Origin: Candidatus Obscuribacterales bacterium
GTDB lineage: Bacteria; Cyanobacteriota; Vampirovibrionia; Obscuribacterales; Obscuribacteraceae
Reading direction: 5' to 3'
DNA length: 64,000 bases
Assembly (NCBI GenBank): GCA_020054205.1
Contig: JAGVLS010000045.1
Location: 1-64,000, forward strand
A program made the position numbers and the translations under genes. The notes beneath the pieces are model-generated. The model was not told the DNA's origin. It was given only the letters and a program-made list of their open reading frames with translations, and ran no database searches. Positions 47,334-51,347 of this stretch are shown in pieces (position 1 is the first letter of the stretch; each line of letters opens with the position of its first letter).

Positions 47334-48041
47334 GTGAAAAGTAAATTTATAGCAGCTATATTAGTAGCATTATTAATAAATACTGGGTCTAGTTTAAGTT
47401 TAAACGCTGCATCTCCTACAAATGGCTTTAAAGATTTAACGGATAGTCCTAACAAAACTTATATAGAAGAATTAACTAAATTAGGAATTTTTGATGGACT
47501 AGGATTAGAATTTAAGCCATATCAAAATATCAGTCGCGGTGAATATATTGCTTGGCTTGTCACAGCTAATAATCGTATGCGCACAGCTGAACATCAAATT
47601 CAATTTGCTCCTTGGTTACAACCACAATTTTCTGACGTACCAAAAACACATCCTTGTTATAAATGGATACAAGCAATGTCCAATACTGGCTATTCAATTG
47701 GCTATACAGATAAAACATTTAAGCCCAATCAAGCTATTACTCGCGAAGAAATGATAGCCATCAAGTCTTATGTTGATTATGGTGACACTCATGCTACAGG
47801 AAATTTATTCAAATATAATGACTTAGCACAAGTAGACGCACGCTTTAAACGCGGCATTATTGATGATGCTTATTGGACCGACAACAATATGGAGCGTGCT
47901 TTTGGTTCCACTAAATCTTTAAAGCCAAAACAAGCAGTAATGCGCTTTGAGGCGGCAGGAACCATCTGGGGATTTGGCAATAGTGGTCAATGCACAGCCC
48001 ATAAAATATTAGAGCGTGGTGGTCGTCCTAGTACTTATTAA
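47334..48041 (+). CDS. S-layer-homology (SLH) domain protein
   Basis: A 235-residue exported protein (signal peptide about 1-24, cleavage near LNAA). Two or three SLH repeats follow. The clearest are FKDLTDSPNKTYIEELTKLGIFDG (about 32-55) with ISRGEYIAWL, and FSDVPKTHPCYKWIQAMSNTGYSIGY with ITREEMIAIKS (about 100-150). SLH modules bind secondary cell-wall polymers or peptidoglycan and are common in cyanobacteria and relatives. It starts at GTG 47334 with GGGG upstream. The stop overlaps that of the convergent gene (TTAA). Confidence 0.9.
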   Translation: MKSKFIAAILVALLINTGSSLSLNAASPTNGFKDLTDSPNKTYIEELTKLGIFDGLGLEFKPYQNISRGEYIAWLVTANNRMRTAEHQIQFAPWLQPQFSDVPKTHPCYKWIQAMSNTGYSIGYTDKTFKPNQAITREEMIAIKSYVDYGDTHATGNLFKYNDLAQVDARFKRGIIDDAYWTDNNMERAFGSTKSLKPKQAVMRFEAAGTIWGFGNSGQCTAHKILERGGRPSTY

Positions 48042-48553
48042 CCTTTACTTGGTGGCGGTGGTGGTAAAAGTCTTATCGGCTTCGGTTCATTTTCTTTCGC
48101 TTTAAGCCTTTCTTCTTCTTTTACATCCTCATCAATAATGCGCATAAGCATAGCCACCACCTCATCAATAGCCATATGAGCAGGCAATTTTCTTTCACCA
48201 ATTAGGTCATGTGTCCATAGTCTTGTTTCTCTGTGGTGAGCTGTGACATTGATTTTATAATAGTCTTTATCACCATGAATCATAAACATTGTTGCTTCAC
48301 GTTCAAATTGAAACCATTTTTTTATATCCAACAAATCAAGAATAATTGATTGTCCTGTCTCAGCATTCTCTGGAATATCAACCTTTGGACGACTGGTAGT
48401 GAGCTCATCATGAATAAGTTGTGCTAATTCATTTTTAGCATTTAAATCACAAACATTGACTGGCTCAGCATCAAAATAGAAAGAATTATCCGCCTGTTTT
48501 ACAGTCGGCAATATAATTTGATTATGGTAACGATAGAATCTAACAAATGACAT
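48038..48553 (-). CDS. Unknown protein, last gene of lysS-linked cassette
   Basis: A 171-residue cytoplasmic protein I do not recognise. It opens with MSFVRFYRYHNQIILPT, has a middle segment IILDLLDIKKWFQFEREATMF, then KINVTAHHRETRLWTHD and an amphipathic helix (about 128-155). It ends in a proline run (RLLPPPPPSKG). The fold looks like alternating strands and helices and is reminiscent of small immunity-type proteins, but that is only an impression. It follows the frameshifted gene by 93 bases on the same strand. The stop overlaps that of the SLH gene. Confidence 0.6.
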   Translation of the reverse strand: MSFVRFYRYHNQIILPTVKQADNSFYFDAEPVNVCDLNAKNELAQLIHDELTTSRPKVDIPENAETGQSIILDLLDIKKWFQFEREATMFMIHGDKDYYKINVTAHHRETRLWTHDLIGERKLPAHMAIDEVVAMLMRIIDEDVKEEERLKAKENEPKPIRLLPPPPPSKG

Positions 48554-48646
48554 AGGATAATTTACCCTCTTTTCCCTATGACAGTATACACCGTAAAATT
48601 TGCCTGGGACTCGTTATCGCGTTTTTGTGGATCTCGCCAATGAACT

Positions 48647-49230
48647 TCACCACTTTCTAAGTTGTCTAAAGACTTCACGATTATGATCTAATACAGCTTG
48701 CCAATCATTTCTATTGGGCTCGATATTATTATCACCTATAAGAAATTGCACAACATCTTCAAAAGCCACCCTTCCACTAGGAATATGCTTGTCATACAAA
48801 TCGGGAATTTCTTCCGTAGATATTCGTACATGTGAATGTGGATATGGAAAAGGTTTTTTATCAGTATCTTCAAGCTTCATTGGTTCCAGGGTTTCTCTAT
48901 CAATCTTTTCAGGATGCCAATGAAATTCATATAAAGCTTTTCCAGTCTCAACAGAACTAATTTTATAAATATATTCTCTTGTTTTAATGCGTACTTTGTT
49001 GGAGGTATCTTCTATTGGAACTACCTCCGTAATTATGTAAGCATGTAACTTGTATAGCTTTTTCCGTTCTGCGTTTTTAGCTCCAATGCAGGAACTAAAG
49101 CATATAATTTTATTGTGTCCCCTTTGATGGGATGCTTTGAACGCCGCCACTGAGACTTAGTTAAAGTACTAAGTGCTTTTTGTATATGGGGACTAAATTC
49201 TTTATTTGCTTGATCCGCAGTTCTTGCCAT
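48647..49230 (-). pseudogene. Frameshifted gene with HWHP and HSH motifs (unnamed family)
   Basis: Two overlapping minus-strand frames read as one protein of about 190 residues. The first (49230 to 49033) gives about 52 good residues (ARTADQANKEFSPHIQKAL ... LYALVPALELK). The second, -1 relative to it, continues with LYKLHAYIITEVVPIEDTSN, YEFHWHPEK, PHSHVRI, GRVAFEDVVQFLI and DWQAVLDHNREVFRQLRKW. The shift lies in the A-rich stretch at about 49060-49080 (minus strand), which includes an A5 run at 49060-49064. It could be a mutation, a sequencing error or a true -1 frameshift. The His pairs suggest metal or nucleic-acid chemistry. I recall similar unnamed proteins next to a small partner in other bacteria, but cannot cite them. 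Confidence 0.6.
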
Positions 49231-49450
49231 AAATTTGACTGTATCCAGTAAATGGCAACAGCATTAATAGTTCCATGATTTCACAGCGATTATCCGTATC
49301 AAAACCACCAGCCCTATATTTTTTTATAAATTCTTCTGCTGTCATGCCGAGCTGTTCTTTGACAGTTTTATCAAACAACTCGCGCGTTTCTGCCGTAGTC
49401 ATTTCAACTACATCATAAGATTCGTTATCGTTATTAATACAGGTACTCAT
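49202..49450 (-). CDS. Small acidic partner protein (unnamed family)
   Basis: An 82-residue acidic protein with two helical segments: TAETRELFDKTVKEQLGM and TAEEFIKKYRAGGF (about 19-52). A conserved-looking DTDNRCEIMELLMLLPF segment follows (about 52-68), then a short tail. I recall comparable LGMxxxEFxxxxxAGxF...VMxxxMLLPF proteins lying before an HWHP protein elsewhere, so this may be an antitoxin- or chaperone-like partner; that is unproved. The downstream gene starts at ATG 49230, inside this gene (29-base overlap), so the two are translationally coupled. Confidence 0.65.
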   Translation of the reverse strand: MSTCINNDNESYDVVEMTTAETRELFDKTVKEQLGMTAEEFIKKYRAGGFDTDNRCEIMELLMLLPFTGYSQIYGKNCGSSK

Positions 49451-49519
49451 ATAACTATCTCATAGTAGTACTACTGTTTAGATTATAACCCAAGCTCTTA
49501 GGTTATTTCTGTAAATTAT

Positions 49520-49681
49520 TTACCCTCTACAGGCGCCTGATAGACCCTTTTGTTCAATAAATTGCTGTGATGAGGAAAACCTGGAAAGGTAGTCTAGTAA
49601 GGTTTCTCTTGGTAGATCCTTGCCGCGCGTTCTCAAGGTATAAGCACCGTTAGTATCGCCGCTTGGATCATACCTGGGCAT
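49520..49681 (-). CDS. Small ORF between lysS and the cassette
   Basis: A 53-residue open frame on the minus strand. Its composition looks protein-like: Asp/Gly-rich start (PRYDPSGDTNGAYTLRTRG), then an amphipathic helix (KDLPRETLLDYLSRF) and a SSSQQFIEQKGL end. It lies 35 bases after the lysS stop and 69 bases before the next cassette gene on the same strand. The weak point is the absence of a clear ribosome site before ATG 49681. The frame is open further upstream into lysS. No family is recognised. Confidence 0.4.
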   Translation of the reverse strand: MPRYDPSGDTNGAYTLRTRGKDLPRETLLDYLSRFSSSQQFIEQKGLSGACRG

Positions 49682-49716
49682 GGTTAAGATTAACTGTGAA
49701 GTGGACGGATTTAATT

Positions 49717-51195
49717 TTATAGAGGCTTCATGGTTGGAAAAGCAATTACATCACGAATGGAAGGAGAGTCAGTTAAAAGCATAACTAGTCTATCTAAACC
49801 AACTCCAATACCCATGGTCGGTGGCATACCATATTCCATTGCTAAAATAAAATCTAAATCTAATGGTTGTGCTTCTACATTTCCAGCTTCTCGCTTTTTG
49901 GCTTGTTCTTCTAGTCTTTGTTTTTGATCTTGCGGATCGCTAAGTTCACTATAGCCATTAGCATGTTCACGTCCATAAATAAACAGTTCAAAACGCTCTA
50001 CCAAGCCTTTTTTCTCGCGATGCATTTTAGTAAGTGGTGAAATTTCAACAGGATAGTCAATAATAAATGTAGGTTGAATCAGTGTAGATTCACACTTTTC
50101 TTCAAAAATTGTATTAATAACCGCTCCGCGTGAATCTTCATCTTTCAATTCTACGCCTAGTTTTTTAGCAATTTCTTGGGCACTATTAAAATCAGAAATC
50201 GTATCAACATCAACACCAGTTATATTTTTTATAGCTTGTGCCATTGTAATACGTGCCCACGGACGCTTAAAATCAATTTCTTTCCCTTGATAAGAAATTT
50301 TGCTTGTACCACACACAGTATTTACTACGTGTAAAAGCATTTCCTCGGTAAAATCCATAAGCTCAAAATAGTCACCATAAGCTTGATATAGTTCAAGCAT
50401 AGTAAATTCTGGGTTATGCTTCGTACTTATGCCTTCATTGCGAAATATTCTACCAATGTCATAAACTTTTTCAAAACCACCAATAATCAAACGTTTTAAA
50501 TGCAATTCTGTTGCTATACGCAAATACAAATCCATATCAAGCGCGTTGTGATGGGTAATAAAAGGTCTGGCATCAGCACCACCTGCTTCCGCTTGCAAAA
50601 CTGGTGTTTCTATTTCTAAAAAGCCTCTTTGGTCCAAAAATTCTCTGAGCGATCTAATAGCAATACTACGTTTTTTAAATGTTTCACGTACGCTCGGATT
50701 CATAATCAAATCAACATAACGATGTCGATAACGAGCTTCAACATCAGTAAATCCGTCCCAGCTATCTGGCAATGGCTGCAACGATTTACAAAGTATTTCA
50801 TAACCAGTTACTTTAATCGACAATTCACCTTGTTTAGTGCGCCTAACTGTGCCTGTTGCACCAACAAAATCTCCTTTGTCGAGAAGCTTCAGCCTTTTTA
50901 AAGCCTCTTCAGATAAGTTTTCTTTGTGACAAAAAAGTTGAATTTTTCCTGATTGATCATATAAATCAACAAACATCCAGCTATTTCGCTCATTCATAAC
51001 TCTTCCACAGACAGAAACAACATCTTCTGTTTCGCTGCCAGCTGGCAAATCTTTATAGAGTTTCTGCAAATCATCAGCTTGATGAGTGCGCGCATAATTA
51101 TAAGGATAAGGATTAATACCTTCCTCTTTTAATTGATTAAGCTTGCGCAATTTTTCAGCGCGCAATCTACTTTTTTCTACATCGACAACAGTCAA
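49717..51195 (-). CDS. lysS: Lysyl-tRNA synthetase (class II)
   Basis: A 492-residue class II LysRS. The N-terminal OB-fold anticodon-binding domain (about 60-140, VVSVCGRVMNERNSWMFVDL) precedes motif 1, motif 2 (FRNEGISTKHNPEFTMLELYQAYGD) and motif 3 (GIGVGLDRLVMLLT). The end SIRDVIAFPTMKP is canonical. I chose TTG 51195 because AAGGAG lies 7 bases upstream in the coding frame; the ATG at 51216 would add 7 residues without a site. It lies upstream of the unnamed cassette on the same strand and is divergent from gyrA. Confidence 0.95.
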   Translation of the reverse strand: MTVVDVEKSRLRAEKLRKLNQLKEEGINPYPYNYARTHQADDLQKLYKDLPAGSETEDVVSVCGRVMNERNSWMFVDLYDQSGKIQLFCHKENLSEEALKRLKLLDKGDFVGATGTVRRTKQGELSIKVTGYEILCKSLQPLPDSWDGFTDVEARYRHRYVDLIMNPSVRETFKKRSIAIRSLREFLDQRGFLEIETPVLQAEAGGADARPFITHHNALDMDLYLRIATELHLKRLIIGGFEKVYDIGRIFRNEGISTKHNPEFTMLELYQAYGDYFELMDFTEEMLLHVVNTVCGTSKISYQGKEIDFKRPWARITMAQAIKNITGVDVDTISDFNSAQEIAKKLGVELKDEDSRGAVINTIFEEKCESTLIQPTFIIDYPVEISPLTKMHREKKGLVERFELFIYGREHANGYSELSDPQDQKQRLEEQAKKREAGNVEAQPLDLDFILAMEYGMPPTMGIGVGLDRLVMLLTDSPSIRDVIAFPTMKPL

Positions 51196-51347
51196 TTTCA
51201 ATCTCCTTGCCAGCATTATTTTGCTTTAGATTTGCGCCATTATCAACTTTATAATTGGCTAATAATAAGACTTTGATACTTTTTGATTATATTAGCAAAG
51301 TAAAAGATTTACTCTAAGACTCGCTTCACAAGCCTAAAGTTAGCCCA

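Follow-up and report, generated by a model that had tools for sequence, protein, structure and literature searches.

A candidate mobile toxin-antitoxin pair between lysS and its companion gene in a Candidatus Obscuribacterales genome

We analyzed a 64,000-nucleotide stretch of contig JAGVLS010000045.1 from a Candidatus Obscuribacterales bacterium (assembly GCA_020054205.1), hereafter referred to as the window. The open reading frame (ORF) listing of the window confirmed that a 53-residue ORF, an 82-residue ORF, an ORF with HWHP and HSH motifs, and a 171-residue ORF all lie on the minus strand behind lysS (Table 1). None of the ORFs behind lysS matched a Pfam, NCBIfam, or PADLOC model above its threshold. 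In this study, the 82-residue protein is designated AT, the HWHP/HSH protein HW, and the 171-residue protein p171.

Table 1. Features of the lysS-p171 region (positions are those of the window).
Feature	Position	Strand	Remarks
lysS	49717..51216	-	Leads the ancestral lysS-p171 operon
Segment of 1163 bp between lysS and p171	48554..49716	no strand	Missing from relatives
53-aa ORF	49520..49681	-	Probably not a gene
TATAAT, -10-like hexamer	49482..49487	-	Starts 37 bases 5' of the AT start
12-base palindrome, AGTAGTACTACT	49463-49474		Flanked by the TATAAT-like hexamer and the start of AT
AT, acidic, 82 aa, putative antitoxin with the motif LGMTAEEFIKKYRAG	49202..49450	-	Intact here; homologues immediately 5' of HW in related genomes, a Dermacoccus plasmid, and a Mycobacterium prophage
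HW, HWHP...PHSH...HIPSGR protein, putative toxin	48647..49230	-	One split gene
HW 5' part, 65-aa frame	49230 to about 49064	-	Colinear with the intact G037 protein
HW 3' part, 167-aa frame	about 49063 to 48647	-	Colinear with the intact G037 protein
65-aa ORF (N-terminal part of HW, other frame)	49033-49230	-	
HWHP/HSH ORF, 167 aa	48647-49150	-	
A5 run, site of the -1 reading-frame shift	49059..49063	-	Nucleotide alignment with G037 and G012
p171, 171 aa, Pro-rich tail	48038..48553	-	lysS companion, outside the inserted pair

A preliminary description had read these four ORFs as one functional cassette. They are adjacent and co-directional in the window; however, their surroundings in related genomes told them apart. 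Of the 50 genomes examined from the same family, 42 encoded a p171 homologue, and in each of the 19 relatives inspected at this locus (L025-L043) p171 lay directly 3' of lysS on the same strand and without the pair, starting 9-170 bp past the end of the lysS match, as against 1163 bp in the window. These results indicate that lysS followed by p171 is the ancestral order, and that the relatives display the site of the AT-HW insertion in its empty state. Conversely, AT-HW occurred elsewhere without p171. The 53-residue ORF had no credible homologue among the 50 related genomes, the one match (E = 0.026) containing a stop, and it is probably not a gene; it was accordingly rejected as a third gene of the module. 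The four-gene cassette was therefore rejected on the synteny of lysS-p171 and of the pair, and we consider it extremely improbable: the supposed cassette is three separate things, namely p171, the 53-residue ORF, and an AT-HW module whose HW gene is frameshifted. A position next to lysS should thus not be taken as evidence of a joint function. As for p171 itself, it is a lineage-specific, uncharacterized protein of 160-175 residues with conserved W..FE and TGRG.DGMW-like motifs, and alignment showed that the Pro-rich tail is common to many of its homologues.

Profile searches of the 50 family genomes detected HW in 11 and AT in 11, a patchy distribution. In all 10 genomes with clear HW homologues, AT was located immediately upstream of HW, a constancy beyond what chance would give; the objection foreseen in the preliminary description, that the two genes might not co-occur in other genomes, did not materialize. 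The two genes of the window shared about 60% and 52% identity with those of the closest relative, G037. The ends of AT and HW overlapped by 11-29 nt in seven of the nine pairs measured, with the small partner first, and in G023 a divergent HW protein was preceded by an overlapping small ORF that encoded the motif FGMTIPQFL. Conserved His positions in the HxHP, PHxH, and HIPxGR motifs were hallmarks of the HW family. AT-HW is thus a real two-gene unit inserted between lysS and p171, in which AT would be the antitoxin partner. Hexamers of the form T-A-N-N-N-T were found 26-42 bases 5' of AT in seven related modules, and a generic promoter scan gave no signal above chance. The palindrome listed in Table 1 was considered as an operator before AT and rejected, as it was not conserved in the relatives' modules. 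Literature searches returned no description of an AT-HW pair.

Alignment with the intact G037 homologue and with G012 showed that HW of the window was split by a single -1 frameshift at the A5 run. The two parts were colinear with the intact G037 protein and shared 67% and 59% identity with it. The 29-base overlap reported previously does exist, but it joins the 82-residue ORF to the 65-residue ORF rather than to the 167-residue HWHP frame. Apart from the A5 site, both halves of HW were open and well conserved, implying that the lesion is either recent or an assembly error; the latter may apply here. A programmed frameshift was rejected, since the 0-frame codons GGA AAA AGC differ from the standard slippery heptamer A AAA AAG; it is also disfavored by the single intact frame of G037, and a mutation or assembly error is the preferred explanation. 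HW was also broken in G012, G014, and G004, each time by different lesions, with AT intact in all three. HW carried lesions in four of ten copies and AT in none, but with the lengths of the two genes taken into account this difference was not significant (estimated probability by chance, about 0.24), so toxin decay with a retained antitoxin was rejected as proof of a toxin-antitoxin (TA) system. Because its HW is frameshifted, the module in the window is probably in decay, its antitoxin still being intact.

The pair was also detected on mobile elements outside the lineage, among them actinobacterial plasmids. A mobilizable Dermacoccus plasmid encoded a 54-residue AT with LNMPGDTFLARWDAGEF and an overlapping HW with a WHWHP motif, and the Mycobacterium abscessus prophage prophiGD44-1 carried AT-HW as genes 30 and 31. 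Traces of the pair were present on a Pseudonocardia plasmid, and a further copy lay on a metagenomic viral contig. Among the related genomes, the G037 copy had relaxase/NikA-like genes on one side and kfrA on the other, and IS21 genes adjoined that of G014. Carriage by plasmids and a prophage and the proximity of relaxase/NikA-like, KfrA, and IS21 genes indicate that the pair is mobile, and AT-HW has probably inserted between lysS and p171, illustrating how a mobile module may split a housekeeping operon. Scans of genome and viral collections yielded few further copies, and no other copy turned up at E <= 0.001 in a sample of 386 genomes from the phylum.

Several neighboring observations were made in the course of these searches. 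An AT homologue without HW was present at about positions 890-1700 of two loci, L052 and L059 (G023:C272 and G012:C199), just 3' of a small gene and a gene for a MazF/PemK-type toxin. L052 and L059 came from different genera yet were nearly identical, which suggests a recently shared mobile contig or contamination. A gene for a Fic/DOC-family protein lay about 0.5 kb from the broken AT-HW of G012 (L019, 6947-8308). Contig CAJCIF010000110.1 (L084, 4161 bp) is titled Actinobacteria bacterium, yet genome G003, which belongs by its placement to the same family as the window, contains this very contig; either its title or its binning looks wrong.

The toxin role of HW is a prediction, and its His-rich motifs could be the metal site of an ordinary enzyme, so that AT-HW might be a non-toxic enzyme-adaptor or regulator pair carried by plasmids and phages. 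The patchy, mobile, two-gene layout, with the small gene first and overlapping ends, favors a TA system instead, as does the resemblance to TumE-TumA set out below, and we regard a non-toxic pair as improbable.

TumE-TumA is a validated TA superfamily, in which six toxins halted growth of E. coli and were neutralized by their cognate antitoxins; one TumE toxin lowered protein synthesis, and the proposed RNase activity is unproven (PMC10584680). No curated family in Pfam, NCBIfam, or PADLOC was matched by AT or HW above its cut-off, and HW of the window and its close homologues gave no match to PF20126 or NF045777 at their cut-offs. The divergent HW protein of G023 matched PF20126 with E = 0.0013 and 19.2 bits, under the cut-off of 23.4, and the HW profile with E = 1.3e-9, making it a sequence intermediate between HW and TumE. 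Two ATs matched the NCBIfam TumA model at E values of 0.06-0.08, the best AT score against NF045776 being 13.6 bits relative to a cut-off of 100. The profile search called for by the preliminary description therefore returned nothing above a cut-off, but it did uncover a sub-threshold signal to the characterized TumE-TumA, which itself favors a TA role. AT-HW has not been filed under TumE-TumA because its curated models are not reached.

We then compared profiles, drawing on cyanobacterial genomes for genuine pairs of TumA (NF045776) and, downstream of it, TumE (NF045777). HW against genuine TumE gave an hhalign score of 29.5 (probability 34%), the highest score among 150 column shuffles being 22.3, and AT against TumA gave 21.4 (16%) compared with a best of 17.9 in 150 shuffles, column shuffling being a lenient control for such scores; unrelated families scored 10-18. 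Against a combined TumE alignment of 27 sequences, HW reached a probability of 50% (E = 1.6e-4), with PHxH aligned to PHHKH. The probability was 25% when the G023 sequence was left out and 1-4% when an enlarged HW set was compared with one TumE group alone (A6). As a yardstick, two accepted TumE groups reached 48% against each other. HW (A3) gave no profile signal with the TumE set of the same bacterial family that has HTH-like partners (A4), and a sequence search of the PDB with the HW and TumE profiles found nothing credible. The remote HW-TumE link is thus suggestive, not decisive, and varies with the alignment.

AlphaFold2 modeling of an intact HW (L085) with seven sequences gave a pLDDT of 80.8 and a pTM of 0.81. 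In the model, a helix at the N terminus is followed by seven strands and then by helices at the C terminus. TumE is described as an alpha+beta fold with two helices on a seven-stranded antiparallel sheet (PMC10584680), and the predicted HW model is consistent with this published description in the order of its elements. Foldseek found no match in the PDB for this model, and none in BFVD or the PDB for the first AlphaFold2 model (pLDDT 68.5); TumE was likewise reported to have no PDB match (PMC10584680).

These data bear on whether HW is a toxin unrelated to TumE, belonging to a family that has a fold of its own and an active site rich in His, which might depend on a metal. The His positions of HxHP, PHxH, and HIPxGR are what mark the HW family, the RYD of TumE corresponds to FHxH in HW, no curated family is matched, and the hhalign support, modest as it is, changes with the alignment used. 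In contrast, the order of secondary-structure elements in the HW model is that of TumE, both partners score above the null against the matching TumE and TumA, and G023 supplies an intermediate sequence. We therefore consider an unrelated toxin unlikely. The related proposal that HW-AT represents a separate, undescribed TA family in at least two phyla, with a new HxHP/PHxH/HIPxGR catalytic site not derived from TumE, is likewise doubtful.

Our preferred reading, to which we assign a probability of roughly 0.7, is that AT-HW is a mobile type II TA module and a divergent relative of TumE-TumA, with AT as the antitoxin and HW as a toxin directed at RNA or translation, serving maintenance or defense of the element that carries it. 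The pairing, the patchiness, the carriage by plasmids and a prophage, and the weak remote link to TumE-TumA together lend good support to the undescribed, TA-like pair with a coupled start that had been proposed. The data show the pairing and its gene order, the overlap, the mobility, the insertion, and, at the level of the assembly, the frameshift; we infer that HW is toxic, that it is neutralized by AT, and that its target is RNA. AT would be made first and would bind and mask HW, the translation of which would be coupled to that of AT through the overlapping ends. Once freed, HW, for which an alpha+beta fold with a sheet of seven strands is predicted and in which a cluster of Tyr, His, and Arg residues is conserved, would block growth, probably by attacking RNA and halting translation, as proposed for TumE. 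The module may thereby act as an addiction or defense element of a plasmid or prophage. In the source genome it would have landed between lysS and p171, where the HW frameshift would have left a decaying copy with AT intact. The strongly conserved Tyr/His/Arg positions of HW provide a direct list for mutation, and intact copies are available in related genomes.

Three known systems can be compared with the pair. The candidate defense protein PDC-M44A of PADLOC (76 positions) matched AT of G037 at the TumA core motif with E = 0.012; however, the match was weak, covered only 23 residues, and did not extend to the partner. TumE with a winged-helix-like partner, from the same bacterial family (A4), forms two-gene units like AT-HW but differs in having the toxin gene first and the HTH-like partner second, with no detectable profile link to HW. 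Such genuine TumE genes with a downstream winged-helix-like partner (L063-L083) were present in 12 of the 50 family genomes, with up to five copies in G024.

With TumE-TumA (PF20126/DUF6516, NF045777/NF045776), the differences lie in size, motifs, and validation. HW has about 175-210 residues and TumE about 100-130, the invariant HxHP and HIPxGR motifs of HW are missing from TumE, and AT and TumA share a common core of only about 21 residues, their C-termini being different. Toxicity has been validated for TumE, whereas the toxin role of HW is putative and the curated cut-offs are not reached by AT-HW. In contrast, both are two-gene operons with a patchy distribution, and the partner lies upstream in the NF045776 type; TumA-TumE of cyanobacteria has the identical gene order and overlapping ends. 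TumA and AT share the small-protein motif [LM]xxxExFxxxYxxG. TumE and HW share a Y-x-Y strand followed by a strand with RYD (TumE) or FHxH (HW), a PHxH motif, and an arrangement of an N-terminal helix, seven strands, and a C-terminal helix, predicted in the case of HW. AT-HW is thus probably related to TumE-TumA and probably works like it, and it would constitute an unannotated addition, spanning at least two phyla, to a little-known kind of TA system whose toxin mechanism is unproven.
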